From: Pseudonocardia sp. C8
Lineage (GTDB): Bacteria > Actinomycetota > Actinomycetes > Mycobacteriales > Pseudonocardiaceae
Assembly (NCBI RefSeq): GCF_014267175.1
Contig: NZ_JACMTR010000002.1
Location: forward strand, 4,613,501 to 4,677,500
Length of the DNA: 64,000 bases
Direction of reading: 5' to 3'
Under the pieces are notes generated by a model. It had not been told where the DNA came from, searched no databases, and was given only the letters and a program-made list of their open reading frames with translations. Shown in pieces: positions 14,824-60,756 of the stretch. Within the stretch, counting starts at the first letter, position 1, and every line of letters begins with the position of its first letter. The position numbers were made by a program, and so were the translations under genes.

Positions 14824-14858
14824 GCGTCCCATCCTTCCACGTGGGGAAAGATGGGGGC

Positions 14859-38323: not shown

Positions 38324-38356
38324 CCACCACACCGCCCCACCCGGAAGGTTGATCGC

Positions 38357-39526: not shown

Positions 39527-39551
39527 TCCGCTTCGATCGGAGGAAACCCCG

Positions 39552-40529: not shown

Positions 40530-40569
40530 CACCCGCCGGCCGATCACCCGCCCACGAGAGGAGCCCGGC

Positions 40570-45773: not shown

Positions 45774-46624
45774 TGGATTTCACCCTTTCTTCCGACGGGC
45801 GACCGGGCGAGGAAGCCCGGGTCGATGAGCATCCCGTGCACCTGCTGGTTGTGGCTGTGGCAGAGCTGGTGGTACGCGAACGAGGTCTGCATCGCGTTGT
45901 GCCGACCCTGGTTGTCCTGGGCGGCGTTGACTGCCTCCTTCGCCAGCTTGAGGGCGAACAGCGGTTTGGCGGCGACGCGGGACGCGAGTTCGAGGGCGAC
46001 GTCGTCGAGCTCGTCCCGAGGGACGACGTGGTTGACCATGCCGAGCCGGTGCAGGTCCCGTGCCGAGAAGAAGTCGGAGGTGAACAGCATCTCCTTGGCC
46101 GTCCGGACACCGACCTCGAACGGGTGGTTGAAGAACTCCGCTCCGGAGACGCCCATGGACACGGTGTTGTCCGCGAAGGACGCATCCTCGGCGGCGACGA
46201 TCAGGTCGCACGGCCAGACGAGCATGAGACCGCCGGCGATGACCTTGCCCTGCACCGCGGCGATGGTCGGCTTCGGCAGGTTGCGCCACCGCTCGGAGAG
46301 CCCGAGGTACATCTCCTTCTCGACGGCCATCTGCCCCTCGGCGCCGTCGCAGCCGAAGCCGCACCAGGTACCGACGCGGCGATGGCCCGCCACGACCTCA
46401 CGGGCGTCCGCCTCGCGCAGGTCGTGCCCGGACGAGAAGTGCGGCCCGTTCGCGGCGAGGATGATCACGCTCACCGCATCGTCCTGGGCGGCCAGGTCGA
46501 AGGCGTCGTTGAGCTCGTGGAGCAGACGCATGCTCTGCGCGTTCCGCGCGTCCGGGCGGTTCAGGACGATCCGGGCGACCCTGTCCGCCGGCCGCTCGTA
46601 GAGGATGTGCTCGAACTCGCTCAC
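45770..46624 (-). CDS. Enoyl-CoA hydratase/isomerase family protein
   Basis: This 284-residue crotonase has VARIVLNRPDARNAQSM, the oxyanion-hole regions FSSGHDL and VQGKVIAGGLMLVWPCDL, and MGVSGAEFF in the position of the second catalytic Glu. The C-terminal ~50 residues contain a His-rich stretch (FAYHQLCHSHNQQVHG) unlike standard hydratases. The lack of the usual first catalytic Glu context (GGG E) suggests a lyase, hydrolase or hydratase variant. GTG 46624 overlaps the aldehyde dehydrogenase stop by four bases, and the gene overlaps the fusion gene by four. Acts on the CoA ester formed by the synthetase in this operon. Confidence 0.88.
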   Translation of the reverse strand: MSEFEHILYERPADRVARIVLNRPDARNAQSMRLLHELNDAFDLAAQDDAVSVIILAANGPHFSSGHDLREADAREVVAGHRRVGTWCGFGCDGAEGQMAVEKEMYLGLSERWRNLPKPTIAAVQGKVIAGGLMLVWPCDLIVAAEDASFADNTVSMGVSGAEFFNHPFEVGVRTAKEMLFTSDFFSARDLHRLGMVNHVVPRDELDDVALELASRVAAKPLFALKLAKEAVNAAQDNQGRHNAMQTSFAYHQLCHSHNQQVHGMLIDPGFLARSPVGRKGEIQ

Positions 46625-48132: not shown

Positions 48133-49785
48133 TCAGACGAGCGCGTTCTGCGCCGCGGTCTCCGTGGCCCAGCGGTAGTCGGCCTTGCCGGCAGGGCTCC
48201 GGACGACCGCGTCGACGCGGACGATGGCCTTGGGGAGCTTGTAGCGGGCGAGGGTCTTCCCGGCCCGGGCCAGCAGCTCCTCGTCGCTGGGGTCGTGCCC
48301 GTCCTCGATCTGGACGACGGCGACGACCTCGGTGCCCCAGCGCTCGCTCGGACGCCCGACGACGACCACGTCGCCGACGCCCGGGTGGTCCGCCAGTGCC
48401 GACTCGACCTCCTCGGCGAACACCTTCTCGCCGCCGGTGTTGATCGTCACCGAGTCGCGGCCGAGCAGCTCGATCGTGCCGTCGGCCAGGACCCGGGCCC
48501 GGTCACCGGGCAGCACGGTGCGGACGCCCTCGACGGTCGGGAAGGTGCGCTCGGTCTTGTCGCGGTCGCCGAGATAGCCCATGGGGATCGGGCCCTGCCG
48601 GCCCAGCCACCCGGTGGCCGGATCGCCGGGCTCGAGCAGGCGCGTCCGGCTCTCGTCCACCACACAGGTGCCCGCGGCTGCCGTGAACACACCGGACGTC
48701 GCCGGCGCCTGGCTGGTGCTGATGTTCGACAGCTGGGAGCCGCTCTCGGACGAGCCGGCCACGTCGACGACGACGACGTGCGGCAGGTTCCGCAGGATCC
48801 GGTCCTTCACCGGTGCGGTGGTCACGGCTCCACCGAGGCCGACCATCACCAGGGAGCTGCCGTCGTGCCCGCCGCGCTCGAACTCGTCGAGGACCGGGGT
48901 CGCGAACGCGTTGCCCACCATGTTGATCAGCTGGACGCCCTCGGCATCGATCGCCGTCCACACCGACTCCGGATCGAGACCGTCGACGACGTCGGGGAAC
49001 ACGACCTTCCCGCCGGTCAGGAAACCGGCCATCGCCAGCCACTGGGCCGCGGCGTGGATCAGCGGTGGCAGCGGCATCACCACGCGCGCAGGGCTGTCGA
49101 CGACGATGGCGACTCCCTCCTCCAACGAGCCCGCGTCGAGCAGGCCCTCCGGGAGGAACGCCGCGATCGCGCTGTCGAGGATGTCGGCCTGCGTCCACGT
49201 CGTGCCCTTCGGCAGGCCCGTGGTGCCGCCGGTGTAGACCAGGTACAGGTCGTCGGGATCGGGCCGGACCGGCGGCGCCTCCGGGTCGGAGCCGGCCAGG
49301 GCCTCCTCGTAGTCGAGGGCGCCCGGGAGCAGTGCGTTGCCGGACCCATCGTCCACCTGGAGCAACAGCACCGGCCGCTCGGTCAGCGTGTCGAGGACGC
49401 CGGCCAGCGTGGGCGCGAAACACCCGTGGTAGATGACGGCGCGGGTCCCGGCGTCGTCGAGCAGGTGGGTGAGCTCGGCCTCGACGTACCGGTAGTTGCA
49501 GTTGAACGAGGCGGCCCGGGCGGCTGCGGCGCCGAGCATGCCCTCGACGTACTCGTTGCCGTTGTGCAGGTACAGCGCGACGTGGCCCTGACCCGAGTCC
49601 CAGGGCTCCAGCTCGGCGCGCTCCGTGTCGACGGTGACGCCGTGCGCCAGCAACAGGTTGGCCAGCCGGTTGACGCGAGCGGCGACGTCGCCGTAGCTCA
49701 GCCGCCGGTCCCGGAACACGATGCAGTCCCGCTCCGGGACCGCCGCGGCGACACCGGCGAACAGCGCTGCGTGGTTGTAACGCAT
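48133..49785 (-). CDS. Acyl-CoA synthetase (AMP-forming)
   Basis: This 550-residue ANL-superfamily ligase shows P-loop YTGGTTGLPKG, adenylate motif SSESGSQLSN (a variant of YGxTE), INTGGEKVFAEEVESAL and the C-terminal catalytic Lys in SPAGKADY. ATG 49785 with AGAGGAGAT upstream starts MRYNHAALFAGVAAAV; the longer frame has no homology. It activates a carboxylic acid to its CoA ester and so feeds the crotonase and thiolase of the operon. Substrate not predictable. It lies 10 bases downstream of the ThDP enzyme. Confidence 0.92.
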   Translation of the reverse strand: MRYNHAALFAGVAAAVPERDCIVFRDRRLSYGDVAARVNRLANLLLAHGVTVDTERAELEPWDSGQGHVALYLHNGNEYVEGMLGAAAARAASFNCNYRYVEAELTHLLDDAGTRAVIYHGCFAPTLAGVLDTLTERPVLLLQVDDGSGNALLPGALDYEEALAGSDPEAPPVRPDPDDLYLVYTGGTTGLPKGTTWTQADILDSAIAAFLPEGLLDAGSLEEGVAIVVDSPARVVMPLPPLIHAAAQWLAMAGFLTGGKVVFPDVVDGLDPESVWTAIDAEGVQLINMVGNAFATPVLDEFERGGHDGSSLVMVGLGGAVTTAPVKDRILRNLPHVVVVDVAGSSESGSQLSNISTSQAPATSGVFTAAAGTCVVDESRTRLLEPGDPATGWLGRQGPIPMGYLGDRDKTERTFPTVEGVRTVLPGDRARVLADGTIELLGRDSVTINTGGEKVFAEEVESALADHPGVGDVVVVGRPSERWGTEVVAVVQIEDGHDPSDEELLARAGKTLARYKLPKAIVRVDAVVRSPAGKADYRWATETAAQNALV

Positions 49786-49795
49786 CAGATCTCCT

Positions 49796-51487
49796 CTAGC
49801 TGCAGCGCACGTCGACGAGGGCCTGGCGACCCTGGTCGCGGACGACACGGAAGGCTTCCTCGAGCGCACCCCTGAGCTCGCGACGGTGGTGGACCGTCAC
49901 GCCGTGGCCGCCCGACGCGGTGCAATACGACGCGAAGTCCGGCGAGGGCGACAGGTCGGAGAACCGCTCCTCCGCGCTGGTCATCGCGGTGCCGTTCGGA
50001 TAGACCGAGTACGTCGCCGCGTCCACCGCCCACCACCCGCCGTTGTTGGCGATGACCGTCAGCACCGGCAGGTCGTGCTTCGCGGCCGCGTGATGGCAGG
50101 CTGCCGGGTTCGCGAACAGGTAGGCACCGTCGCCCAGCGTCGCCACCACGGTGCGGTCCGGTGCGGCGTACTTCGCGCCCAGAGCGGCGGGCAGACCCCA
50201 GCCGAGGCCACCCGCGGACGGCAGGAAGAAGTAGGTGCCGGGCTCGGTCCGGTGGAGCAGCTCGGGCACGCCGACGTACTCGTTGAAGACCAGGTCCTCG
50301 TCGTCGAGCAGCTCGCCGAGGACCGCCGAGATGGTCGCCTTGGTGATCGGCTGATCCGATTCCTCGAGCGCCCGGGTCCGCAGCGTGTCGACCGCGTCGC
50401 GGCTGGCGGCGGCACGGTCCCGGATCCGCGTGGTGCGGGCGGCCTCGTCCCTGACCGCACGGGTCTCGAGCTGGGCGCGCAGAGCGGTCAGGAACGCGAC
50501 CGGTGTGGCACTGATGTTCAGGTCCGACCGGTGCGAGCGCATCGGGATGGAACCGTGGATCGGGTCGACGGCGACCTGGGCGATGAACGTCTCGTCACGC
50601 GGCGTCCAGTAGTGCTCGATCCAGGGGACGTCGCACTCCAGGAACACGATGAGGTCGGCTTCGGCGAAGACGGGCCCCGGGTCGGTGCCGACGTGGTGCG
50701 GGTGGTCGATCGACACCGTCAGGAACCGCGAGAACGAATCGGCGACACCGATGCCGAAGCGGGAGCAGACCTCACCGAGCAGCTCGGCGGACCCCCGCTC
50801 GGCACCCGACGCGGTCGAGACGACGACCGGGAACCTCGCGGCGGCGATCCGGTCGGCGAGCTCGGCCACGGCGGCGGGATCGGGTTGGACCGAGGCCGGC
50901 ACGGCGGTGCGTGGGCGGTCGGCCACGAAGCCGGCGGCCGGCTCGGCGAGGACCTCGCGCGGCAGGGAGAGGTAGACCGGCCCGCGCGGGTGGGACTCGG
51001 CCACGCTCACGGCCCGGTCGACCACGTCCTCGACCTGCCGGGCGTCCCGCAGCTCGTAGTCCCACTTGACGAGCTCGCGCACCAGGCCGGCCTGGTCGAA
51101 CATCTCCTGCGTCCAGTGGATCGGCAGGTCGCGTGCGCCGGTGGCACCGGCCTCCAGGACGGGCGAGCGCCCGGCGGTGACGAGGAGGGGGACGCGGTCG
51201 CGTGATGCGTTGGCGACCGCGCACGCCGCGTTGGCCGTACCGACGCTGACGTGGACCATCAACGCCTGCGGCCGGCCCGACACCAGCGCGGCACCGTGGG
51301 CCATCCCACCCGCGAGGTTCTCGTGGGCGCACAGGACCGGGGTCGGCAGCGTCGGACCGCCTTCCTCCTTGTTGACGGCGTAGGCCTCGACGATCGGTGC
51401 GAAGTCGGTCCCGGCGTTCATGAAGATCGACTCGATGCCGAGCTCGGCGAGCCTGGCGAGATAGGTGGTGGCGACGGTCAGCTGCAT
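49796..51487 (-). CDS. Thiamine diphosphate enzyme, acetolactate synthase/benzoylformate decarboxylase-like
   Basis: This 563-residue ThDP enzyme has three domains. The PYR domain (1-180) has the cofactor-activating Glu in CAHENLAGGMAHGAA. The central domain is about 200-340. The PP domain has the magnesium/ThDP motif GDGAYLFANPAACHHAAAKH (about 440-460) and LTVIANN. It differs from acetolactate synthase in lacking the FAD-binding context and may decarboxylate a 2-oxo acid or perform an aldehyde lyase reaction. ATG 51487 is preceded by AGAGGGATTCCG. It is 14 bases from the LLM gene, second in the operon. Confidence 0.88.
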   Translation of the reverse strand: MQLTVATTYLARLAELGIESIFMNAGTDFAPIVEAYAVNKEEGGPTLPTPVLCAHENLAGGMAHGAALVSGRPQALMVHVSVGTANAACAVANASRDRVPLLVTAGRSPVLEAGATGARDLPIHWTQEMFDQAGLVRELVKWDYELRDARQVEDVVDRAVSVAESHPRGPVYLSLPREVLAEPAAGFVADRPRTAVPASVQPDPAAVAELADRIAAARFPVVVSTASGAERGSAELLGEVCSRFGIGVADSFSRFLTVSIDHPHHVGTDPGPVFAEADLIVFLECDVPWIEHYWTPRDETFIAQVAVDPIHGSIPMRSHRSDLNISATPVAFLTALRAQLETRAVRDEAARTTRIRDRAAASRDAVDTLRTRALEESDQPITKATISAVLGELLDDEDLVFNEYVGVPELLHRTEPGTYFFLPSAGGLGWGLPAALGAKYAAPDRTVVATLGDGAYLFANPAACHHAAAKHDLPVLTVIANNGGWWAVDAATYSVYPNGTAMTSAEERFSDLSPSPDFASYCTASGGHGVTVHHRRELRGALEEAFRVVRDQGRQALVDVRCS

Positions 51488-51501: not shown

Positions 51502-52440
51502 TCAGGGCGTGGACGAGGTGACGGGCTCGGAGCGCGGGCGGAGCGAGGTGGCGATCGAGGCGAGCTCGCGCCACTCCGGCATCGGCAGGCTCTGCCGATC
51601 GGCCGACAGCACCTGGAGCGACACGTGGTCGGCCCCGGCGTCGAGGTGCGCCTGCACGCGGTCGGCGATCCGGTCGAGGGACCCCCACGCCACGATCGCG
51701 TCGACGAGGCCGTCGCTCCCCTCGCCGGCCAGATCGTCGTCGCCCCAGCCCAGGCGGCGGAGGTTCTCGGTGTAGTTCGGCAACGCGAGGTACATCTGCA
51801 TGAACCCCCGGGCGATACGCCGGGCCTCCACGGGGTCCGTCTCGAGCACGACGGTCTGGGCAGGCGCCAGCACCGCGTCGCCGCCCAGCACGTCGCGGGC
51901 CACCTTCGTGTGCTCGACCGGCACGAAGTAGGTGTGCGCACCCGCGCTCCGCTCTGCGGCGAGCCGCAGCATCCGCGGCCCGAGGGCGGCCAGCACACGG
52001 CTCGGCGCCGCCGGTGGGGCCGCCGCCAGGAAGGTGGCGTCGTCCATCCGGTCGAGGTAGTCGACCATCGTCCGGTACGGCCTGTCGTACCGGCCCCGAT
52101 GAGCGCCCTCGACCACGGACCGGTGGCTCACACCCACCCCGAGCAGGAACCGGCCCGGGAACGCCTCGCTCAGCGTCCGCCAGCCGGCGTTCATCGTGAC
52201 CGCGGTGCGGGCGTACAGGCTCGCGATCCCGGTCGCGACCGTCATCCGGTTCGTTGCGGACAGCAGGAGGGCGGCGCTCGCGAACGGCTCGCGGCCCACC
52301 GCCTCGGGCACCCACAGCGCCCCGAAGCCCAGCTCGTCGAGCTCGGCGGCGGCTTCCCGGGCGCGAGCCATCGGCTGGAGGTCGAGCCGGAAGGTCCAGA
52401 TGCCCAGCGGACCGAGCTTCGGGGCACTTGCGTCGCTCAT
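51502..52440 (-). CDS. LLM-class (luciferase-like) F420/flavin-dependent oxidoreductase
   Basis: This 312-residue TIM-barrel of the bacterial-luciferase superfamily has WTFRLDLQPMARAREAAAEL, GFGALWVPEAVGREPF, VATGIASLYARTAVTMNAGW, and GRFLLGVGVSHRSVVEG. These fit the TIGR03620-type F420-dependent group, but FMNH2 use is also possible since a flavin reductase is in the same regulon. ATG 52440 overlaps by four bases the stop of an amidohydrolase remnant. It is the first intact gene of the operon behind operator A. Probably carries out the first redox or monooxygenation step. Confidence 0.87.
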   Translation of the reverse strand: MSDASAPKLGPLGIWTFRLDLQPMARAREAAAELDELGFGALWVPEAVGREPFASAALLLSATNRMTVATGIASLYARTAVTMNAGWRTLSEAFPGRFLLGVGVSHRSVVEGAHRGRYDRPYRTMVDYLDRMDDATFLAAAPPAAPSRVLAALGPRMLRLAAERSAGAHTYFVPVEHTKVARDVLGGDAVLAPAQTVVLETDPVEARRIARGFMQMYLALPNYTENLRRLGWGDDDLAGEGSDGLVDAIVAWGSLDRIADRVQAHLDAGADHVSLQVLSADRQSLPMPEWRELASIATSLRPRSEPVTSSTP

Positions 52441-52520
52441 GGCAGCAGCCACTCCACGTTCGTCCGGAAGAACTTCAAGGATTTCGTCGTGATCTCCTCG
52501 CCGAGCGCCTCCACCGGCAG
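52437..52520 (-). pseudogene. C-terminal remnant of an amidohydrolase
   Basis: Reading the minus strand, the last 27 codons before the TGA that overlaps the LLM start give LPVEALGEEITTKSLKFFRT then NVEWLLP. The intact amidohydrolase at 53479 ends VEPLGEELATKFFTKNAEWLLP. Both the DNA and the protein match, with a three-codon insertion. Directly upstream of the fragment is the TetR operator, so everything between the start of the lost gene and its last ~27 codons has been deleted. Confidence 0.8.
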
Positions 52521-52528
52521 CCAGCGAT

Positions 52529-52544
52529 TAGATAGATCAATCTA
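52529..52544. promoter_or_regulatory. TetR operator A, in front of the eight-gene minus-strand operon
   Basis: TAGATAGATCAATCTA has perfect TAGAT-N6-ATCTA symmetry. It is the reverse complement of operator C. On the minus strand TTGACG (52578-52573) lies exactly 28 bases before it, the same spacing as at operator C. Confidence 0.82.
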
Positions 52545-52734
52545 ATGGCAAACAGAGGTACCGCACCAGCTACGTCAACGGTTCCTCCGCGGCGGGTATC
52601 TGCCTCGACGTCGGCGAGAACGCGGGCAGGCCGGCGCCGGCGAGTTGCGCGCACGCCGGAACAACCGGTCCGGCGACGGGATACCGGCCCGGGTCAGGTC
52701 GTGCCGGCCGCGACGGGTACGCCGCAGTCGGTGG

Positions 52735-53385
52735 TCATCCCTTGCGGGAGCCCTCGCGATCGTCGCCGGCGGTCTCGGCAGCGAGCGCAGCGGCAACGGT
52801 GTCCGCCGCCAACCGCCCTGCGGTGGCCACCGGTTTCGTGCTACGGGTGGTGCGCGCGAGCAGGAGGGAGCCCTCGAGCAGGGCGAAGATCTGCACCGCG
52901 GTGTCGCGGGCCGTCCCGGCCGTCATTCCGGCCTCGGCGAAGCGCTGCTCGAGAACCGCGAGCCAGGACTCGAATGCGGAGGCAGCCGCGACGCGCATCG
53001 GTTCGTCGGTGCTGGCCACCTCGAGGGCGATCGTCGCGATCGGGCACGAGTAGTCGAAATCGCTCTGCTCGAGGAGCTCCGCCGCCAGGACGAACGAGTC
53101 GGCGGTGGCCTCGGCGACGTCCTTCGCATCCGGGTACACCGACTCGATCAGCTGACGGTAGCGCTCCCCACCGTGCTCGAGGGCGGCGACGCCGAGCTCC
53201 TGCTTGCCGCCGGGGAACCAGTGGTAGAGCGATCCGTACGGCGCCGCGGCGTCGGCGAGAACCGCCTTGACCCCCGTCGCGGCGTAACCGTTGCGGCTGA
53301 ACAGTGCCGCCGCCGCCTCCACGAGCCTCGTCCGGGTTGCACGCTGGCCCTCGGCCGTCGCCGCGCTCGAAACCATGATCCGCAT
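52735..53385 (-). CDS. TetR-family regulator of the catabolic regulon
   Basis: This 216-residue regulator has the N-terminal TetR helix-turn-helix at residues ~14-60 (RTRLVEAAAALFSRNGYAAT, GSLYHWFPGGKQEL) and a ligand domain with SCPIATIALEV, as in the LmrA/YxaF-like group. Start ATG 53385 (a second ATG at 53376 is possible). A degenerate copy of the regulon's operator lies 9-24 bases upstream, indicating autoregulation. It is encoded among its likely targets, between operators A and B. The inducer is probably a pathway metabolite or CoA ester; this is inference. Confidence 0.9.
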   Translation of the reverse strand: MRIMVSSAATAEGQRATRTRLVEAAAALFSRNGYAATGVKAVLADAAAPYGSLYHWFPGGKQELGVAALEHGGERYRQLIESVYPDAKDVAEATADSFVLAAELLEQSDFDYSCPIATIALEVASTDEPMRVAAASAFESWLAVLEQRFAEAGMTAGTARDTAVQIFALLEGSLLLARTTRSTKPVATAGRLAADTVAAALAAETAGDDREGSRKG

Positions 53386-53393
53386 ACTACCCG

Positions 53394-53409
53394 TAGATCG
53401 TTCTATCCC
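53394..53409. promoter_or_regulatory. TetR operator F (degenerate), upstream of tetR
   Basis: On the minus strand GGGATAGAACGATCTA matches the consensus TRGATAGANNRATCTA except at the first base, with the second base fitting the R. Its position 9 bases before the tetR ATG fits autorepression. Confidence 0.6.
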
Positions 53410-53478
53410 GTTGCCGCAGGCATCCCCACCCCCGGGCGCGGTGGAAGCCGGTGGTGAGCGGCAGCGACGGTGCGATCG

Positions 53479-54675
53479 TTACGGCAGCAGCCACTCGGCG
53501 TTCTTCGTGAAGAACTTGGTGGCCAGTTCCTCCCCGAGCGGCTCCACCTTGGCCGCCATGTTGTCCAGCGCATCCTTGGTCCCCTCGACGTGCGGGTAGT
53601 CGCTCGAGAAGCAGAAGACGTCGGCGAGATCCGGATCATCCTTGAAGTAGCGGTCGATCGGCTCGAAGTTGAACGGTGAGACCCGCACGTTCCGCGCGAT
53701 GTACTCGGACGGCTTGAGCGGGAACCTCGCCGCGGCCGAGCCGGGGAACACACCGACGTACATGTCCATACGCCGAGCGGCGTTGCCGACCCAGTGTGCA
53801 CCGACCTCCAGCAGGCCCACCCGCAGCCGGGGGAACCTCTCGAACACGCCGCCCAGAACCATGGTGGACAGGTAGTTGTCCACCGCCATGTGCACCGTGG
53901 CGAACATGTGGATCGTCGTGTTCGGGATCTCCGGGGACTGGAACAGGTCCATGAACGTCTCGGCCATCGACCATCGCGGGTCCAGGAAGGCGAACTCGGT
54001 GCCGATGTGCAGCGTGACCGGGACGTCGGCCTCCTCGAACATGCGCCAGAACGGGTCGAGCTCGGAGTGGGCCGGCGAGAGGCCGCCCGGGGGGTTGTCG
54101 GCCTGGACGTAGACGGCCCGGACCCCTGAATCGATCAGCTTGCGCCCGGTCGCGATCATCTCGCTCAGGTTCTCGCTGGTGGGCACGATCCCGACCATCC
54201 GGATCCGGCCGTCCGCCAGCACGGGCTCGCTCGTGACCCACTCGTTGTAGGCCCGCAGGAAGCTGGCCGTGAACTCCGGCCTCGACATGCCTTCGAGCAT
54301 CGAGACGTCGCCGCCGAATCGCATGTCGAAGGCCGTGTCGTTCATGCCGCCCACCATCATCGCGGCGATCGCGGTCGTCGGGAAGACGAGCTGACGGTCG
54401 ATGCCCATCGTGTCGAGCACCTCGAGCCGGCGGTGCATGTCGATCGCGCTCGGAGCCGGCGGGCCCTTGATCTTCCAGATGTCGCACGGCTCGATCGGGC
54501 TCACGTCGCCGACGATGTCGGGCTGGTGCATGTTGGTCGGTGTCGGATCAGGACGCAGCTCGTCCATCACCTCGAACAGCCGGCCCATGATCCGGCCGGG
54601 CTTCCCGAGGACGTCTCCGAGGAGGTGACCCGGAATCATCTCGTGACTGTCGATGTCGTTGGCGAGGAGTTCCAT
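53479..54675 (-). CDS. Amidohydrolase_2-family metal-dependent hydrolase/decarboxylase
   Basis: This 398-residue TIM-barrel protein of the ACMSD/resorcylate-decarboxylase-type amidohydrolases has an N-terminal metal motif DSHE (variant of DxHxH, residues 9-12), His in VTLHIGTEF, His in MFATVHMAVDN and the Asp of FSSDYPHVEGT. Members decarboxylate or hydrolyse aromatic and ring-cleavage acids. ATG 54675 has GAGAGGACACG upstream. Operator B lies 12 bases before the start. A remnant of a second copy exists at 52437-52520. It is probably transcribed alone. Confidence 0.9.
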   Translation of the reverse strand: MELLANDIDSHEMIPGHLLGDVLGKPGRIMGRLFEVMDELRPDPTPTNMHQPDIVGDVSPIEPCDIWKIKGPPAPSAIDMHRRLEVLDTMGIDRQLVFPTTAIAAMMVGGMNDTAFDMRFGGDVSMLEGMSRPEFTASFLRAYNEWVTSEPVLADGRIRMVGIVPTSENLSEMIATGRKLIDSGVRAVYVQADNPPGGLSPAHSELDPFWRMFEEADVPVTLHIGTEFAFLDPRWSMAETFMDLFQSPEIPNTTIHMFATVHMAVDNYLSTMVLGGVFERFPRLRVGLLEVGAHWVGNAARRMDMYVGVFPGSAAARFPLKPSEYIARNVRVSPFNFEPIDRYFKDDPDLADVFCFSSDYPHVEGTKDALDNMAAKVEPLGEELATKFFTKNAEWLLP

Positions 54676-54686
54676 CGTGTCCTCTC

Positions 54687-54702
54687 TAGATAGATTGATC
54701 TA
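54687..54702. promoter_or_regulatory. TetR operator B, amidohydrolase promoter
   Basis: TAGATAGATTGATCTA has perfect TAGAT-N6-ATCTA symmetry and lies 12 bases before the amidohydrolase ATG. A TTGACG (minus strand, 54740-54735) is the probable -35, and a -10 cannot be fixed. Confidence 0.82.
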
Positions 54703-54791
54703 GCCAGCTCTAGGCTGGCATGTGCGCCCGATCACGTCAAGCGGCTCCCGGACGTTCCGCGCACGCGCAGCTGGCGTCGCCCCTCCACCGA

Positions 54792-54821
54792 TTGACGCGG
54801 TGGGACCCCTCCGGCTACGCT
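54792..54821 (+). promoter_or_regulatory. Promoter of the VOC gene
   Basis: TTGACG (54792-54797) is followed after 18 bases by TACGCT (54816-54821). The start point would fall at about 54828, inside operator C. Confidence 0.6.
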
Positions 54822-54825
54822 TAAC

Positions 54826-54841
54826 TAGATTGATCTATCTA
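54826..54841. promoter_or_regulatory. TetR operator C, VOC gene promoter
   Basis: TAGATTGATCTATCTA is the exact reverse complement of operator A. It starts 28 bases after TTGACG and covers the predicted transcription start. Confidence 0.82.
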
Positions 54842-54979
54842 GGAGCAGGAGCGTCTCCGCTTCTCGACAGCAGAAGTGCCCTCGTCCACGCGCCGCATAC
54901 GCCGGCGGTGACATCCCGGCCGAGACGCCCTCGGCACGACGGGATCCCACGAACCACGAACCCGGAAAGGCCAGGACCA

Positions 54980-55492
54980 ATGATCAAGGTCGACAGGATC
55001 GCGCACGTGGTGATCAAGGTGCGCAACCTCGAGAACTCGCTCGACTTCTACACCCGCGTCCTCGGGCTGAAGGTGATGGGCAGGATCGAGCCGAACGTGG
55101 CTTTCCTGTCCACCGGGCGCGACCACCACGAACTGGGGATCGCCGAGATCGGCGACCAGGCTCCCGGCAACTCGTTCTACCGGGTCGGCGTGGAGCACTT
55201 CGCCTTCCGACTCCGTGACGAGAACGACCTCCGGGAGGCGTACCAGACCCTCCTCGACGAGAACGTCGAGATCGCGTACACCGTGAACCACGGCGTCGCG
55301 AAGAGCGTCTACTTCCTCGATCCCGACGGCAACGAGCTCGAGGTGTACGCGGACAACTCGCCGGAAGAGGTCGCGAGCTTCGACAACCCCTACGGAGGGA
55401 TGGAGAAGCTGGACTTCGCCCTCGACAAGCCGTCACTCATGGATTCGATCGTCAAGGCTCAGCAGGAGATGGCGTCGGCCGCGACCGGATGA
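54980..55492 (+). CDS. VOC-superfamily protein (glyoxalase/extradiol dioxygenase-like)
   Basis: This 170-residue protein has vicinal-oxygen-chelate repeats: MIKVDRIAHVVIKVRNLENS, LDFYTRVLGLKV, VEHFAFRLRDENDL and YFLDPDGNELEVYAD. The His9, His in EHFAF and Glu in NELEVY can form the metal site of glyoxalases and type I extradiol dioxygenases. ATG 54980 follows GGAAAGGCCAGGACCA. The leader from the predicted start is about 150 bases. It is transcribed from operator C away from the amidohydrolase, so a ring-opening role is attractive but unproven. Confidence 0.87.
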   Translation: MIKVDRIAHVVIKVRNLENSLDFYTRVLGLKVMGRIEPNVAFLSTGRDHHELGIAEIGDQAPGNSFYRVGVEHFAFRLRDENDLREAYQTLLDENVEIAYTVNHGVAKSVYFLDPDGNELEVYADNSPEEVASFDNPYGGMEKLDFALDKPSLMDSIVKAQQEMASAATG

Positions 55493-55525
55493 CGGGTTCG
55501 CCTCCCCTCTCATGGCCCGGGCCGT

Positions 55526-55541
55526 CATGGCCCGGGCCATG
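55526..55541. repeat. 16-bp perfect palindrome with a nearby partial copy
   Basis: CATGGCCCGGGCCATG is a perfect palindrome; a copy of its first part (CATGGCCCGGGCC) begins at 55511. It is in the gap between convergent genes. Function unknown; it may be part of the terminator region. Confidence 0.5.
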
Positions 55542-55596
55542 ACGATGAGCCGAGTCGATGCGAGTTCGTCGAGCCGTGGTCGAGCGTTCCGTCCCG

Positions 55597-55632
55597 TCGC
55601 CGCCGGCCCCCGTACACGGGGGCCGGCGGCGA
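55597..55632. terminator. Very strong bidirectional terminator
   Basis: This is a 17-bp perfect inverted repeat: TCGCCGCCGGCCCCCGT (55597-55613) with ACGGGGGCCGGCGGCGA (55616-55632) and only two bases between. It lies between the convergent VOC and MDR genes. Confidence 0.85.
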
Positions 55633-55666
55633 GGGACCGACCGCGGAGGAACCCCGCGACGGCCGG

Positions 55667-56656
55667 TCACAGGTGCACGATGGTGCGCCCCTTGATCGCG
55701 CCCGCCAGGATCTGGCCGGCCACCGCCGGGATGCCGTCGAGACCGACCTCGTGGGTGATGCCCTCGGTCAGGTACTTCGGCTTGAGGTCCGAGCCGAGCC
55801 GCAGCCACAGGGCGGCACGCACGTCGGCCGGGCACATGACCGAGTCGATGCCGAGCAGGTTGACTCCTCGCAAGATGAACGGCAGCACCGTGGTGCTCAG
55901 CTCGGAACCACCGGTGAGGCCGCAGTTCGCCACCGAACCGCCGTAGCGCGTGGTGCTCAGGAGATACCCGAGCGTCCCGCCGCCGACCGGGTCGATGGCG
56001 CCGGCCCAGAGCTCGGCGTCGATCGGACCGCCCGGGGCGGAGACGTCCTCGCGCCCCAGGATCTGCGCCGCGCCCAGCTCCCGCAGGAACTCGTGCTCGT
56101 CGACCTTGCCCGTGCTGGCAGCCACCTCGTAGCCGAGGCCGCTGAGCATGTTCACCGCCGTACTGCCCACGCCACCGGTGGCACCGGTCACGAGAACCGG
56201 GCCGTCGCCCGGTTCGAGGCCGTTCTCCTCCAACCGCTGGATGGCGAGCGCCGCGGTGAAGCCCGCGGTACCCAGCGCCATCGCCTCCCTCAGGGAGAGG
56301 TTCGGCGGCAGCGGCTCCAGCCAGTCGCCCGGGAGACGGGCGTACTCGGCGTACCCACCGAAGTGCGCCGTGCCGAGTCCGCGACCGATCGCCACGACCT
56401 CCTTGCCCACCTCGAAGCGGGGGTCGCTCGACTCGGCCACGGTGCCGGCGATGTCGATCCCCGGCACCATCGGGTAGGCGGTCACCACCGGGCTCTCCGG
56501 CAGGCAGGCCAGGCCGTCCTTGTAGTTGACGCTCGAGTAGCGCACCCGCACGGTCACGTCGCCTGCCGGCAGGTCGTCGAACCCGAGCTGCTCGACCCCG
56601 GCACGGAACCCGGCGTCGTCGTTGCGGAGGACGAAGGCGTCGAACGTCTCAGTCAT
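55667..56656 (-). CDS. AcuI/YhdH-type medium-chain oxidoreductase (acrylyl-CoA reductase-like)
   Basis: This 329-residue zinc-free MDR of the YhdH/AcuI group has VRVRYSSVNYKDGLACLP, PGIDIAGTV, TAGFTAALAIQRLEENG, NADP loop TGATGGVGSTAVNML, and a late GGSELSTTVLPFILRGVNLLGIDSV, which is diagnostic for the group. These enzymes reduce activated double bonds such as acrylyl-CoA. ATG 56656 overlaps the NTF2-like gene by eight bases, so the pair is coupled. It belongs to a different MDR subgroup from the one in the fusion protein at 44358. Confidence 0.9.
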   Translation of the reverse strand: MTETFDAFVLRNDDAGFRAGVEQLGFDDLPAGDVTVRVRYSSVNYKDGLACLPESPVVTAYPMVPGIDIAGTVAESSDPRFEVGKEVVAIGRGLGTAHFGGYAEYARLPGDWLEPLPPNLSLREAMALGTAGFTAALAIQRLEENGLEPGDGPVLVTGATGGVGSTAVNMLSGLGYEVAASTGKVDEHEFLRELGAAQILGREDVSAPGGPIDAELWAGAIDPVGGGTLGYLLSTTRYGGSVANCGLTGGSELSTTVLPFILRGVNLLGIDSVMCPADVRAALWLRLGSDLKPKYLTEGITHEVGLDGIPAVAGQILAGAIKGRTIVHL

Positions 56657-57188
56657 GAGTGGCCACCGGAGAGTTGATGGTCTTGCCGCGGGACTCGGCG
56701 ACCGCGAACGCGTCGTGCTTGGCGATGATCGGGGCCGAGTCGCCGATCGGGGTGACACCCGGCAGGGTGCGGAAGTCGTCTCCGAGCTGCTCGGCCATCA
56801 TCCCCGCGAAGACCGGGTCCATGTACATCCGCTCGCCGGAGATCAGCCGCAGGTCGGGGTCGAACGACATCACCACCATGTAGAGGCCCGTCACCCGCTC
56901 CCCCGCGGAGGTGGTGAAGGAGACGTACGCCTCGCGGACCAGGGTGTTGGCGGCCACCGCGTGGACGCGCTTCTCGGCGGCCACGTCGCGCACCGTCACG
57001 TACGGCATGATCCGCCGGTAGGTCTCGCGGACCGGCTCGGTGCCGTCGATCGCCCAGCCCAGGGTCGCCAGCTCGTAGTGGGGATCTGGCGTCAGGGTCG
57101 CCATCGTGCGCTCGACGTCCTGTTCGAGCTCCGCGATCTCGTGCTCGAGCAGGATCTCTTCCATCTCCTGCTTCGTCAGTTGGTTCAC
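56649..57188 (-). CDS. NTF2/SnoaL-like protein, stand-alone relative of the fusion domain
   Basis: This 179-residue protein's residues 1-150 align closely with the N-terminal domain of the fusion protein: MEEILLEHEIAELEQDVERT versus MEALLHKHEEYELNYDFDGT, then TLGWAIDG, EKRVHAVAANTLVREAYV and GERMYMDPVFAGMMAEQLG. I chose GTG 57188 because GGAGGAAG lies five bases upstream and the alignment with the fusion starts there; the ATG at 57206 sits only three bases from the operator. It overlaps the MDR gene downstream by eight bases. The fold suggests an isomerase, dehydratase or ligand-binding role. Confidence 0.85.
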   Translation of the reverse strand: MNQLTKQEMEEILLEHEIAELEQDVERTMATLTPDPHYELATLGWAIDGTEPVRETYRRIMPYVTVRDVAAEKRVHAVAANTLVREAYVSFTTSAGERVTGLYMVVMSFDPDLRLISGERMYMDPVFAGMMAEQLGDDFRTLPGVTPIGDSAPIIAKHDAFAVAESRGKTINSPVATHD

Positions 57189-57209
57189 GACTTCCTCCAG
57201 CCTCATCGC

Positions 57210-57225
57210 TAGATAGAGCGATCTA
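57210..57225. promoter_or_regulatory. TetR operator D, NTF2-like/MDR operon
   Basis: TAGATAGAGCGATCTA has perfect TAGAT-N6-ATCTA symmetry. It begins eight bases after the predicted -10 of the minus-strand promoter, so it covers the transcription start. Confidence 0.82.
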
Positions 57226-57233
57226 CTCAGCCG

Positions 57234-57262
57234 AGGCTAGGGCGGAGACGACCCGTCGTCAA
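57234..57262 (-). promoter_or_regulatory. Promoter of the NTF2-like/MDR operon
   Basis: On the minus strand TTGACG (57262-57257) is followed after 17 bases by TAGCCT (57239-57234), a near-ideal housekeeping promoter. It is back to back with the NIPSNAP promoter. Confidence 0.7.
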
Positions 57263-57268
57263 CGACTC

Positions 57269-57297
57269 TTGCCCGCGACCATCGTCTTGGATAGATT
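57269..57297 (+). promoter_or_regulatory. Promoter of the NIPSNAP operon, overlapping operator E
   Basis: TTGCCC (57269-57274) is followed after 17 bases by TAGATT (57292-57297), and the ATG of the NIPSNAP gene starts seven bases after the -10. The message would therefore be leaderless. Confidence 0.65.
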
Positions 57298-57303
57298 GAT
57301 CTA
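57288..57303. promoter_or_regulatory. TetR operator E, NIPSNAP operon
   Basis: TGGATAGATTGATCTA differs from operator B at one base. It covers the -10 and ends at the base before the ATG. Confidence 0.8.
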
Positions 57304-57639
57304 ATGGACACCGACCGCGTTTTCGAACTCCGCAGGTACGACGCCGTCCCCGGCAAGATCGACGCCCTCCTGGACCGGTTCCGCAACCACGCGGCCCCCC
57401 TCTTCGAGAAGCACGGGATGGCCAACATCGGCTTCTGGGTGGAACTGGACGAGGACGGCAAGCGCACCGAGACGCTCGTCTACCTCGTGGCGCATGCGAG
57501 CCGCGAGGCAGCTCAGGAATCCTGGGCGTCGTTCTGGGACGACCCCGAGTGGGTCGCCGTGCGGACCAACGGCGAGCAGGTCACGGCGAGGGCGACGTCG
57601 GCCTTCCTCGACCCGGCCGAGTTCTCCGGCCTGCGCTGA
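57304..57639 (+). CDS. NIPSNAP-family protein, probably leaderless
   Basis: This 111-residue dimeric alpha-beta-barrel protein has MDTDRVFELRRYDAVPGK, FRNHAAPLFEKHGMANIGFW and the family's W-x-SFW-x-DPEW region. NIPSNAP and EthD proteins share the fold and both occur in this regulon. There is no ribosome site before the ATG. Instead the operator and -10 abut it, so the transcript likely starts at the A of the ATG. It is first of three co-directional genes (flavin reductase, thiolase-like). Function unknown. Confidence 0.85.
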   Translation: MDTDRVFELRRYDAVPGKIDALLDRFRNHAAPLFEKHGMANIGFWVELDEDGKRTETLVYLVAHASREAAQESWASFWDDPEWVAVRTNGEQVTARATSAFLDPAEFSGLR

Positions 57640-57710: not shown

Positions 57711-58211
57711 ATGACCGGTGATCTTTCGCCCCTCCAGGAGGCGTTCCGGACCGTGATGGCCGGCGTGTGCACGCCCGTCTCGGTCGTGACGACGGTCGAG
57801 CTCTTCGGCCGACCCCACGGTTCCACCGTCAGCGCGTTCACGTCCCTGTCGATGTCACCTCCGATGGTGCTGGTCTCGCTCGACTCGGCGTCGACCCTGC
57901 TCGGAATGGTGGAGGCCACCGGTACGTTCGGCATCAACGTCCTGGCGGCCGGCCAGTCCGACGTCGCGCTGCGATTCGCGACCAAGGGCCCGGGGCGGTT
58001 CACCGGCGTGTCGTGGACGCGAGCGCACGGCGCGGCGCGGCTGGACGGGATCGCCTCGTGGCTGGCGTGCTCGGTCGCCGACATCGTCGAGGGCGGCGAC
58101 CACCGCATCCTGCTGGGCGACGTCGTCTCGGCGGCGGCCTCGGACCTCGAGCCGCTGACGTACCACGCCCGCACGTTCGGAACCCACCAACGGCACGGGG
58201 TGGCGTCGTGA
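57711..58211 (+). CDS. Flavin reductase-like protein (FMN-binding split barrel)
   Basis: This 166-residue protein shows FRTVMAGVCTPVSVVTTVEL, then GSTVSAFTSLSMSPPMVLVSLD (flavin-binding), TFGINVLAAGQSDVALRFA and a late GGDHRILLGDVV. It belongs to the reductase components that supply reduced FMN/FAD to two-component monooxygenases. ATG 57711 with GAGGAGG 12-17 bases upstream. No classical flavin monooxygenase partner is in the window; the LLM protein at 51502 in the same regulon is the best candidate. Confidence 0.88.
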   Translation: MTGDLSPLQEAFRTVMAGVCTPVSVVTTVELFGRPHGSTVSAFTSLSMSPPMVLVSLDSASTLLGMVEATGTFGINVLAAGQSDVALRFATKGPGRFTGVSWTRAHGAARLDGIASWLACSVADIVEGGDHRILLGDVVSAAASDLEPLTYHARTFGTHQRHGVAS

Positions 58212-58239
58212 TGCGCGGACCGATCTGCGAGGGATGGCG

Positions 58240-59430
58240 ATGAGCACGGCGACGATCACGGACGCGACGGCCCGGAACGACGACGTGGTGATCGCCGACG
58301 CGGTCAGGTCGCCGCTGGGGACCTGCCGGGCCGGGGGCACCATCGCCGGGATGAGCCCCGGCGTCCTGCTCGCCCAGTCGGCGTCGGCGCTCCTCGAGCG
58401 GGTCCCGATCGAGCCGGCGGCCGTCACCAAGGTCCTGATGGCCGGCGGCCCCGGCTTCGACAACCTCGCCCGGCAGGCCTGCTCGATCATCGGGGTGTCG
58501 GCGCCGCCCCGCGGTGACGCCGCGTGCGCAGCACCGGGATCCATCGTCCGGACCGCTGCACGGGCCATCGGCCGTCGCGACGTCGTCCTGGTGCTCGCGA
58601 CGGCCGCTCCCTGGCCTCAACCACCACTGCTCACCTCGCGCGGTCTCCGTGAGGCCGAACTGCTGGCGTCCCGGTGGGGGCTCGACCGGGAAGAGCTCGA
58701 CACCTATGCCCGGCAGTCCAGGCAACGGGCCCGCGAGGTCGCGGACATGGGCGAGTTCGGCCCGGAGATCATCCCCGCGGTCGCCTGGACGACGCGCTCC
58801 TGCAAGGTCGTCACGGCGGACGAGACGATCGGCGACGCCGTCGCACCGGGGTTCCCACAGCCCGGCCGCCACCTGCACGCCGGCAACATCAGCCATCCCG
58901 CCGTCGGTGCGGCCGTGACGATCCTGATGGGCAGCGAGCGGGCGCTGGAGCTGGGCATCCGGCCACGCGCTCGCATCGTCGCGCTGGCCGAGTCGCACGG
59001 ACCGGGGCCGGACGGTTGCGGTCCCGTCGACGCGTCACGCCTCGTCTTCGACCACACCGGGCTCGACCCCGACGACCTCGACCACTACGAGATCAGCGAG
59101 GTGTACTCGTCGATCCCGCTGGCGTGGTCGCGCGAGTTCAACGCCGACATGAACCGGTTCAACCCTCGTGGTGGCTCGATCGGCCTCGGCCGGCCGGGCC
59201 CCGCCGCCGGCCTGCGGTCCCTGGCCACGACGCTGTCGGCCCTGGCGGCCACGGGAGGCCGGCTGGCCATCCAGGCGTCGGAGGGCCGGGGCAACACGGG
59301 CTCGGCGTTCCTGATCGAGTACCTGCCGCGCGCCTGCTGCTCCCGAGACGTGCGACGCGCGGACCCCGGCGCATCGGCGACGGCACCCGCGGCGACGGCA
59401 CGTGGTCGCCACGATCGGGTGGGCGTCTGA
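58240..59430 (+). CDS. Thiolase-like protein with altered active site
   Basis: This 396-residue thiolase-fold protein starts VVIADAVRSPLGTCRAG. Only Cys96 (ACAAPGS) resembles the nucleophile. The GHP motif with the catalytic His reads GRP (Arg318), NEAF reads SEVY, and the C-terminal CxGGG reads ASEGRGN without Cys. It is therefore unlikely to be an ordinary thiolase. The last ~40 residues are basic and low in complexity. I chose ATG 58240 (GAGGG six bases upstream) over ATG 58234. It is the last gene of the NIPSNAP operon and the right edge of the island. Confidence 0.85.
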   Translation: MSTATITDATARNDDVVIADAVRSPLGTCRAGGTIAGMSPGVLLAQSASALLERVPIEPAAVTKVLMAGGPGFDNLARQACSIIGVSAPPRGDAACAAPGSIVRTAARAIGRRDVVLVLATAAPWPQPPLLTSRGLREAELLASRWGLDREELDTYARQSRQRAREVADMGEFGPEIIPAVAWTTRSCKVVTADETIGDAVAPGFPQPGRHLHAGNISHPAVGAAVTILMGSERALELGIRPRARIVALAESHGPGPDGCGPVDASRLVFDHTGLDPDDLDHYEISEVYSSIPLAWSREFNADMNRFNPRGGSIGLGRPGPAAGLRSLATTLSALAATGGRLAIQASEGRGNTGSAFLIEYLPRACCSRDVRRADPGASATAPAATARGRHDRVGV

Positions 59431-59476: not shown

Positions 59477-60127
59477 TCACCTCGAGCCGACGAGAAGCCG
59501 GTCCACCAGGACCGGCACCGGGTCCGGGCCGGCGCCGTCGAGCACCGTCCACGGGCTCAGCCAGCCGGCGTCGGCGAGCTGCCGGTAGACGGCGTCGGTG
59601 CGGGCCTGCAGGCCGTCGTCGCTCTCGTAGGCGTCGCGCTCGCGGCCGGGCTCGGTCGCCTCCCGGGACCGGGCCCGCTCGGCGGCGAGCTCGCGGGGCG
59701 GGGCGAGGAGGAGCTGGTGGTCCGGCACCGGGATGCCGAACCGCTCGACCTCCAGGGCGTGGATCCACGCGACGACCTCGCCGCCGGCGTCCTGGCCGAG
59801 CCGGGCGGCGCTGTACGCGGCGTTCGAGGCGACGTAGCGGTCCACGAGCAGGACGTCGTGCGCGGCCAGTGCCGCCCGCAGCCCGGCCGCGGCGCCCCGG
59901 CGGTCCAGCGCGAACAGCACGGCCATGGCGTGCACCGACGACGCCAGGTCGCCCATCCGCCCGTACAGGGCGTCCCGGGCGAGCTCGGCGTGCACGTCGT
60001 CGTCGTAGCGGGGGAAGGCCGCCGCCGTCACCGAGGCCCCGGCCGCCCGCAGGGCACCGGTCAACCGCCCGGCGAACGTGCGCTTCCCGGCGCCGTCCAG
60101 CCCCTCGATGACCACCAGCCGCCCCAC
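59477..60127 (-). CDS. tmk: Thymidylate kinase
   Basis: This 216-residue dTMP kinase of the mycobacterial type has P-loop EGLDGAGKRT, FPRYDDDVHAELARDALYG, LASSVHAMAVLFALDRRGA and the DRYVASNAAYSAARLG block that is nearly identical to Rv3247c. GTG 60127 gives VGRLVVIEGLDG. It supplies dTDP for DNA synthesis. In M. tuberculosis it directly follows mtrA; here 23 kb separate them. The Nudix gene lies 11 bases upstream on the same strand. Confidence 0.94.
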   Translation of the reverse strand: MGRLVVIEGLDGAGKRTFAGRLTGALRAAGASVTAAAFPRYDDDVHAELARDALYGRMGDLASSVHAMAVLFALDRRGAAAGLRAALAAHDVLLVDRYVASNAAYSAARLGQDAGGEVVAWIHALEVERFGIPVPDHQLLLAPPRELAAERARSREATEPGRERDAYESDDGLQARTDAVYRQLADAGWLSPWTVLDGAGPDPVPVLVDRLLVGSR

Positions 60128-60138
60128 GGCCCCGCAGC

Positions 60139-60618
60139 CTAGAGGGTGCCGATCCGCCGGACGCGCGGCCAGGTCGTCGCGAACCCCGGATGCAGCTCCA
60201 GCCCGCCGAGGTGGTCGGTGCGCACCCAGCGCAGCTCGATGCTCTCGGTGCCGCGGACCCGTACCGGCGGCGCCTCCACCGCCCGCACCACGACCGTCGT
60301 GTAGGTCCAGCCGCCGTGGTCGTCCACGTAGGAGTCCATGATCTCCACGGCTCCGACGTCGAGCGTGCTCTCCTCGCCGGCCTCGCGCAGCGCGGTCGCC
60401 GGGGCGGACTCGCCCCGGTCGCGGGCGCCGCCGGGGATGCCCCACGTCCCGCCGTGGTGGCTCCAGGCCGCGCGGTGCTGCAGCAGGATGCGGTCCACCC
60501 CGGGCGGGTCGCCGTCGGCGCGGAACCGGACCAGCAGCCCGGCCGCGCCGAACACGCCCCAGTGCTTGTGCCCCTGCGCGCAGTGCACCCAGCCGTCGCC
60601 GGACCCGGTCGCGATCAT
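60139..60618 (-). CDS. Nudix hydrolase
   Basis: This 159-residue Nudix protein's box GGARDRGESAPATALREAGEE fits Gx5Ex7REUxEExGU apart from the last Gly (REAGEEST). An N-terminal signature WVHCAQGHKHWGVFGAAGLL is common in actinobacterial members. ATG 60618 has GGGAGG upstream. It lies between sahH and tmk, an extra gene relative to M. tuberculosis. It probably cleaves a nucleoside diphosphate derivative; the substrate is unknown. Confidence 0.88.
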   Translation of the reverse strand: MIATGSGDGWVHCAQGHKHWGVFGAAGLLVRFRADGDPPGVDRILLQHRAAWSHHGGTWGIPGGARDRGESAPATALREAGEESTLDVGAVEIMDSYVDDHGGWTYTTVVVRAVEAPPVRVRGTESIELRWVRTDHLGGLELHPGFATTWPRVRRIGTL

Positions 60619-60690
60619 CGCCTCCCACCCTGCACACGCCGACGGCGCGGCGGCCACCCGGGCCGCCGCGCCGTCGCGCTCTCGAAACCT

Positions 60691-60756
60691 CAGTACCGAT
60701 GCGCGCTCCGCACGCTCCGCGCTCAGTACCGATGCGCGCTCCGCACGCTCCGCGCT
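60691..60756 (-). repeat. 33-bp perfect tandem duplication at the sahH 3' end
   Basis: Two identical 33-base units occupy 60691-60723 and 60724-60756, and the first nine bases recur at 60757 inside the last sahH codons (CGG TAC TGA region). The duplication therefore repeats the sahH stop region twice beyond the real stop. Each unit contains GAGCG repeats and can form a GCGCG/CGCGC hairpin, so it may also be the terminator. Confidence 0.85.

Follow-up and report, generated by a model that had tools for sequence, protein, structure and literature searches.

Genes and predicted operators of the cluster

The window analysed here is a 64-kb stretch of the genome of Pseudonocardia sp. C8 (contig 2, positions 4613501-4677500; genome of 6,241,701 bases), in which a gene for a TetR-type regulator, tetR, stands within a catabolic gene cluster of six units whose start codons all lie 0-138 bp downstream of a copy of one 16-mer, TRGATAGANNRATCTA (Table 1). 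The 16-mer is exact at the sites that we call operators A, C, D, E and F and carries one mismatch at operator B; C and D share one divergent intergenic region, and E and F another. A preliminary description of this DNA had reported these six sites, that at 53394 as degenerate, together with their target genes, and on both counts we found it correct. Its promoter spacings stand in part: TTGACG lies 28 bases before the sites at 52529 and 54826, and TTGACG-N17-TAGCCT precedes that at 57210, but the distance at 54687 is 32, and its letters A, C and D can be matched to these sites only when the degenerate one is skipped in the lettering.

Table 1. Genes and predicted operators of the cluster (window coordinates; bit scores refer to the family named)
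Feature	Position	Strand	Remarks
EthD-domain protein	42697-43005	-	last gene of the eight-gene operon; 56.4 bits
Thiolase (PRK06289 family)	43040-44296	-	585 bits (cut-off 375)
Fusion protein	44358-45773	-	N-terminal part like the 56649 protein, then zinc-type alcohol dehydrogenase/quinone reductase
Enoyl-CoA hydratase family (PRK08290)	45770-46624	-	373.8 bits (cut-off 280)
Aldehyde dehydrogenase	46621-48117	-	best match MdlD benzaldehyde dehydrogenase, 281 of 550 bits, below cut-off
Acyl-CoA ligase (PRK07798 family)	48133-49788	-	612.8 bits (cut-off 543)
Thiamine diphosphate (ThDP) enzyme, benzoylformate-decarboxylase-like (PRK08327 family)	49796-51487	-	577 bits (cut-off 456), scanned as 49796-51379; start from gene caller
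F420-dependent LLM oxidoreductase	51502-52440	-	TIGR03620, 353.5 bits (cut-off 219.8)
Remnant, C-terminus of a second amidohydrolase-like gene	52441-52522	-	stop overlaps LLM start (ATGA)
Operator A	52529-52544	+	head of the eight-gene operon, 88 bp upstream of the LLM start; minus-strand TTGACG 28 bases before the site
tetR, LmrA/QdoR(YxaF)-like TetR repressor	52735-53385	-	PF21993 and TetR_N; alternative start 53376, as in P0001 (213 aa)
Operator B (degenerate)	53394-53409	-	upstream of tetR
PF04909 'amidohydrolase' (AmiH)	53479-54675	-	PF04909 69.7 bits (cut-off 26.4)
Operator C	54687-54702	+	11 bp upstream of the amidohydrolase-like gene; 32 nt after TTGACG
Operator D	54826-54841	-	VOC promoter TTGACG-N18-TACGCT; site 4 nt after -10
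VOC (glyoxalase/dioxygenase superfamily) protein	54980-55492	+	PF00903 73.8 bits
Acrylyl-CoA reductase family MDR (TIGR02823)	55667-56656	-	432.5 bits (cut-off 297)
NTF2-like protein	56649-57206	-	label from the preliminary description; matches neither Pfam nor NCBIfam; relatives have homologues of up to 69%
Operator E	57210-57225	+	NTF2-like/MDR promoter TTGACG-N17-TAGCCT; 8 nt after -10, 3 bp before start codon
Operator F	57288-57303	+	0 nt from NIPSNAP ATG; TTGCCC-N17-TAGATT-N6-ATG
NIPSNAP protein	57304-57639	+	PF07978 63.1 bits
Flavin reductase	57711-58211	+	PF01613 123 bits
Thiolase-like protein	58234-59430	+	PF02803/PF00108

The core of the 16-mer is the 12-bp palindrome TAGATNNATCTA, with a second TAGA overlapping one side. 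Four sites carry the palindrome intact, while those at 53394 and 57210 each deviate in one arm base, and TAGA-N4-TCTA is present in all six; owing to the symmetry of the core, several sites are also hit on the opposite strand or at an offset of 4 bp. Allowing up to three mismatches, the window holds 13 strand-hits, where 0.68 would be expected (100 shuffles, none with more than 3). Across the whole genome there are 14 strand-hits at up to two mismatches, ten of them in the cluster and the other four representing three places, each with two mismatches; nothing outside the cluster comes within one mismatch in 6.24 Mb, so that the motif is not spread over unrelated promoters, and the 16-mer read backwards gives two genome hits at the same threshold. 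The looser core TAGANYRNTCTA occurs at ten places, six in the cluster (reversed control, two). We did not count the four outside as part of the regulon, since their inner bases differ; they are found near Lsr2, LacI/sugar-isomerase-like, TetR_C_13 and FAD-monooxygenase/hydantoinase genes. The palindrome TAGACCAGTCTA at G000:C2:4021671-4021682 (L180) lies beside another TetR_C_13 protein and may be the binding site of a related second regulator. Chance, or a mobile repeat with no regulatory role, would accord with the near-identity of several sites in the cluster, but neither explains the excess over shuffled sequence, the position of each site shortly upstream of a start codon or the retention of these positions across genera described below, and we regard this explanation as close to negligible.

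The adjacent regulator and its predicted operator type

The TetR protein exceeds the curated cut-offs of TetR_N (33.6 bits, cut-off 24) and of PF21993, TetR_C_13_2 'LmrA/YxaF-like' (85.8 bits, cut-off 27). Its nearest solved structure is 1sgm, YxaF (QdoR) of Bacillus subtilis (E 1.7e-24), and the helix-turn-helix segments of the two are near-identical (APYGSLYHWFPGGKQEL versus APKGSLYHFFPNGKEEL). With both domains, a TAGA-N4-TCTA operator and a self-operator, it falls among the LmrA/QdoR(YxaF)-like TetRs, and the control system would therefore be of a known kind. As equivalogs in NCBIfam, CurR (48.5 of 300 bits), AcuR (58.7 of 247) and the ScbR type were rejected as far below cut-off. A search for plasmid-borne copies found none of TetR (at 1e-30) or of AmiH (at 1e-60).

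A search of genome contigs with 19 TetR sequences gave at least 557 relatives, of which the best 80 loci were analysed. An exact TAGAN4TCTA lies within -200 to +60 of the tetR homologue in 63 of these, against 29 occurrences in the remaining 1.41 Mb of these loci, a rate of 0.005 per stretch of equal size. Allowing one mismatch raises the count to 72 of 80, the background rate covering exact matches only. More distant homologues have core variants such as TAGAACGTTCTA or TAGACCGGTCTA. On this comparison of sequences, the operator is of the TAGA-N4-TCTA type common to most LmrA/QdoR-like homologues examined, with the core TAGATNNATCTA.

Among the 14 loci whose TetR orthologue is at least 55% identical, seven have a self-site that deviates in one base (CAGATTGATCTA), five show TAGATCAATCTA and two have other variants. 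In L085, L086 and L094 the TAGATCAATCTA copy is the site that abuts a divergent NIPSNAP gene, L086 and L094 having an additional off-by-one self-site; in L093 and L098 it is a perfect self-site. Operator B, likewise off consensus, is a probable autoregulatory site by prediction, and its deviation fits weaker autoregulation.

Could another regulator, a second TetR or a member of a different family, bind the six sites, with the adjacent TetR a bystander? Binding by TetR is predicted, the genome has 14 TetR-like matches at E<=0.001 (the window TetR included), and one other TetR_C_13 protein sits beside the related palindrome TAGACCAGTCTA. However, the operator, self-site included, tracks the TetR orthologue across genera, other homologues have core variants of their own, and the next-best TetR of the genome scores 42.4 bits against 439.6 for the window TetR, all of which makes a second regulator improbable.

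Promoter architecture

Under control by the adjacent TetR, a presumed dimer would bind the 12-bp palindrome, extended by the second TAGA. The palindrome lies on or just after the -10 at D, E and F, where one is recognisable, and upstream of tetR, and binding at these positions would block RNA polymerase. A substrate or intermediate of the pathway would release TetR, switching on all six units together, and the weaker self-site would set the repressor level. TetR proteins that act as activators exist, and a simple scan found no -35/-10 pair at A, B or C; activation by TetR, at all sites or at some with repression at others, is nevertheless highly unlikely given the sites on or downstream of the -10 at D, E and F and the abutment of operator and NIPSNAP start codon, which suits repression.

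TAGATT, the likely -10 of the NIPSNAP unit, is itself part of operator F, whose last base immediately precedes the start codon. The same zero spacing, with an in-frame ATG or GTG, recurs in 12 of 13 loci (window included), the sole exception being L090, which has no operator at the NIPSNAP start. Upstream of TAGATT, at a distance of 17 or 18 nt, a hexamer agrees with TTGACA at five positions in L071, L073, L085, L086 and L088, and at four in the window (TTGCCC) and in L069 (TTGGCC); L070 and L083 offer poor candidates only, and L049, L087 and L094 none. The case for a leaderless NIPSNAP transcript whose operator serves as its -10 is good but unproven.

Operator A probably has a history of its own. 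The 82 bases before the LLM gene on the minus strand encode VEALGEEITTKSLKFFRTNVEWLLP followed by a stop (compare VEPLGEELATKFFTKNAEWLLP), and Nocardia africana (L087) has two intact oxygenase-like copies in tandem at this place. The stretch ITTK...FFRTN of the remnant looks closer to the sequences of relatives than to the intact copy of the window. As judged from this remnant, site A, which would now drive the LLM gene and the seven that follow, probably once served a second oxygenase-like gene that has been lost.

Conservation of the probable regulon

Thirteen other loci have the same enzymes around an orthologous TetR, with one to seven core places each at up to one mismatch: mycobacterial loci (L049/L054, L069, L070, L071, L073, L086 and L088), Nocardia (L083 and L087), Amycolatopsis deserti (L085), Gordonia (L090 and L094) and L084, a contig assigned to a Sphingopyxis metagenome-assembled genome. 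Identities to the window are 57-71% for TetR, 66-78% for the oxygenase-like protein (AmiH), 77-85% for VOC, 58-79% for NIPSNAP, 68-74% for the ligase and 77-84% for the enoyl-CoA hydratase, excluding weaker second copies and paralogues (for example, in L084, oxygenase-like 41%, VOC 32%, hydratase 53%). In some relatives the simple gene caller trims the starts, which are approximate there.

The oxygenase gene directly precedes the LLM gene in 8 of the 13 loci, heading the block LLM-ThDP enzyme-ligase-aldehyde dehydrogenase-hydratase; the stretches of L071, L084 and L094 contain no LLM, and those of L085 and L090 end at that edge. Eight of the 13 have an acyl-CoA dehydrogenase pair (at least 62%), frequently next to an additional site, and a short-chain dehydrogenase/reductase (SDR; 69-100%) adjoins the NIPSNAP or oxygenase gene in 11 of 13. 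L082 (Nocardia veterana) has only TetR and VOC of the window genes at 40% identity or more.

Joint presence and absence of regulator and operator

We asked how far operator and regulator occur together in 248 mycobacterial genomes. TetR is present at E<=1e-40 in 13, with 62-69% identity in 11 and 43% only in two. The 14-mer GATAGATYRATCTA occurs in five (16 sites), all among the 13 TetR carriers and exactly those mycobacteria in which the cluster lies beside the TetR gene, and in none of the 235 genomes without TetR; reversed, it occurs once each in three of the 248. The chance of five random genomes all falling within 13 is 1.7e-7, which is only a guide because mycobacterial genomes are related. 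This co-occurrence with tetR orthologues in related genomes had been proposed as a check, and it supports the regulon. Six mycobacteria carry orphan TetR orthologues (L072, L074-L078; 62-65%), and in these the tetR self-site is kept. Exact AGATYRATCTA places (mismatched sites being missed by this count) number one in three of the six genomes and two in the other three, always including the self-site; the three extra places are within chance, since the reversed control gives six hits in the same genomes.

Farther afield, the exact 15-mer AGATAGATYRATCTA is found in 3 of 397 genomes of the order (this genome and two mycobacteria), and a phylum sample has GATAGATYRATCTA in 6 of 396, with four copies each in this genome and in G144. 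ThDP-enzyme homologues, 52-59% identical, occur in 8 of 61 other congeners, and the cluster seems rare within the genus.

Several observations weigh against the regulon as we read it. Binding by TetR and its effect on the targets are predictions from sequence; 8 of the 80 homologue loci lack a site within one mismatch; related genomes are not independent trials; and in 6 of the 11 mycobacteria with TetR at 62% or more there is no cluster within about 10 kb, nor an AmiH gene in any of these six whole genomes (E<=1e-60), so the repressor exists without the cluster. The reversed 15-mer turns up once each in 4 of the 397 order genomes against three for the operator, four genomes of the phylum sample (1.2-2.8 Mb) hold one lone GATAGATYRATCTA each, and 35 sampled congeners have no close TetR orthologue (best 44%). 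Since the reversed control is as frequent, a lone hit means little; what counts is clustering beside TetR. The sites themselves, their near-uniqueness in the genome and their co-conservation with TetR and the cluster genes are observed, and the regulon is very probably real. We put at about 0.9 the probability that the cluster is one local regulon of the adjacent TetR, with predicted binding, repression and release by a ligand. The self-contained regulon of the preliminary description is thus supported by uniqueness in the genome, by the recurrence of the operator beside orthologous TetR and target genes in four further genera and by the way in which the two are present or absent together.

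A probable oxygenase and a possible pathway

The mandelate-type and alpha-oxidation routes combine a hydroxylase, a dehydrogenase, a ThDP decarboxylase and an aldehyde dehydrogenase. Candidates for these four enzyme types adjoin in the cluster, where the ThDP enzyme resembles benzoylformate decarboxylase (BFD), although here the dehydrogenase would be of the F420 type and the hydroxylase of the amidohydrolase fold.

The candidate hydroxylase is AmiH. Its best-scoring solved relatives are PtmU3 (E 2.1e-17), a putative TIM-barrel hydrolase, DitZ and AibH/SfbO-type proteins, and residues D9, H11, H223, E290, D359, H362 and E364 are invariant in 14 of 14 sequences (AmiH itself with 13 homologues); we placed the N-terminal D-x-H by eye and took the other ligands from a HMMER alignment to PtmU3. 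As far as the available parts of PMC10811679 and PMC7782822 go, PtmU3, AibH2 and SfbO are dinuclear monooxygenases of the PF04909 family, and an acidic residue beyond the AibH2 ligands is reported in binuclear enzymes only. AmiH shares with these enzymes PF04909 and six metal ligands, three histidines and three carboxylates, plus the extra acidic residue two positions after the last histidine (PMC7782822, PMC10811679, in the same parts). It differs from them in its low sequence similarity (66 bits to PtmU3) and in its surroundings: a flavin reductase in the regulon, a catabolic CoA cluster and no Rieske ferredoxin among the 29 window proteins scanned near it. The label 'amidohydrolase' holds as family membership (69.7 bits), but the retained ligands favour a dinuclear metal oxygenase, probably a hydroxylase.

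With such an enzyme, a carboxylic acid or CoA ester would be hydroxylated; the F420 enzyme would oxidise the product and the ThDP enzyme decarboxylate it, yielding an aldehyde that would be oxidised to a shortened acid, activated to its CoA ester and sent to beta-oxidation. For the ThDP step, all 32 PDB sequences matched at E<=1e-30 are BFD, and two histidines align with what we take to be His70 and His281 of BFD; as the BFD equivalog NF005485 the enzyme was rejected (154 against 493 bits, shorter start used). No PDB match was found for the CoA ligase (limit 1e-40), the LLM protein (1e-10) or the NTF2-like protein (0.01). The order hydroxylate-oxidise-decarboxylate-oxidise-CoA-ligate is coherent but unproven, and we propose it tentatively, as a possibility suggested by the gene set.

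Certain points count against it. PF04909 also covers hydrolases, hydratases and others according to the available parts of PMC10811679 and PMC7782822, and it takes in decarboxylases too; one of the 12 PDB matches of AmiH, a weak one, is 5-carboxyvanillate decarboxylase. The scan without a Rieske family covered 30-64 kb, with three open reading frames at 59477-62258 and the first 30 kb outside it. An AlphaFold model of AmiH (eight sequences; mean predicted local distance difference test score, pLDDT, 53.6) was too poor to use.

The main rival is a pathway for a phenylpropanoid or flavonoid-like aromatic, in which ligase, hydratase and aldehyde dehydrogenase would have the roles that they play in the degradation of ferulate, under a repressor responsive to flavonoids, like QdoR. 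The kinship of TetR with LmrA/QdoR speaks for it, QdoR leaving DNA in the presence of quercetin (PMC8481877, available part), as do the MdlD-like aldehyde dehydrogenase and a CurA-like homologue between operators in L071. Against this, the CurA and MdlD matches are under their cut-offs, so we did not take the substrate from these equivalogs; the hydratase belongs to PRK08290; and no ring-cleavage dioxygenase was identified beyond the small VOC protein, which reaches no equivalog cut-off among the matches listed. A ferulate-type hydratase was likewise set aside, the L069 orthologue reaching only 98.6 where the cut-off for p-hydroxycinnamoyl-CoA hydratase/lyase is 276. We consider an aromatic substrate possible but doubtful.

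Neighbouring genes and further loci

Upstream of the cluster, window positions 36597-41547 hold two SDRs, a zinc-type alcohol dehydrogenase and two Abhydrolase_3 esterases, with no core site among them; one SDR (63%) and the esterases (53% and 49%) match genes in the Nocardia africana cluster. Beside the esterases, 41652-42635 (+) encodes a 327-aa protein without a Pfam match, possibly a second regulator. In L071 the CurA-like (curcumin reductase family) gene lies at 14635-15624, with one core site (14618) just past its 3' end and another (15717) between it and a divergent acyl-CoA dehydrogenase pair. L084, with TetR, MDR and oxygenase-like genes 66-73% identical and the site TAGAGCGATCTA at tetR, is perhaps a mis-binned contig or a transfer.

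Discussion

KstR and KstR2, the regulators of actinobacterial steroid catabolism, are TetR repressors that act through many operators on CoA-type catabolic operons. The regulon described here shares that design in the same bacteria, but its TetR scores only 32 bits against the KstR cut-off of 280, and the KstR operator is a different one. The operator consensus of LmrA/QdoR in Bacillus contains TAGA...TCTA, and the targets of that regulon include a drug pump. With QdoR(YxaF) and LmrA of B. subtilis the likeness covers the near-identical helix-turn-helix, the LmrA/YxaF-like C-terminal domain, the presence of the regulator's own gene in the regulon and the TAGA-N4-TCTA operator core. The targets differ, forming a six-unit CoA-type catabolic cluster in place of a quercetin dioxygenase and the drug pump, and no cupin or transporter family was found among the 16 regulon proteins scanned. 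As described in the available part of PMC8481877, QdoR represses its own gene and qdoI, more weakly at qdoR, is released by quercetin and has an operator just downstream of a -10; the self-operator here, too, is predicted to be the weaker, and operators again lie just downstream of the -10.

In open-licence literature, the operator core appeared by titles in mammalian work only, and a search by title and start of abstract found no regulon with this gene set, a statement that applies to that scope, broader topics having been sampled in part. New here are the abutment of operator and NIPSNAP start, the oxygenase ligands in an 'amidohydrolase' and the remnant of its second copy. It is conceivable, if unlikely on present evidence, that the cluster represents an undescribed actinobacterial chain-shortening pathway with a dinuclear oxygenase, an F420 enzyme and a BFD-like enzyme, under an LmrA/QdoR-type repressor whose operator would double as a leaderless -10.

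In conclusion, the analysis points to a clearly delimited regulon, in which a single repressor would govern six units through a single palindrome, in at least five actinobacterial genera, the TetR/operator pair being very rare elsewhere in the sampled genomes. Because it is bounded and conserved, its pathway would be definable by promoter reporters and inducer screens, and AmiH probably represents a branch of O2-activating enzymes of the amidohydrolase fold that serves catabolism and is so far unstudied.

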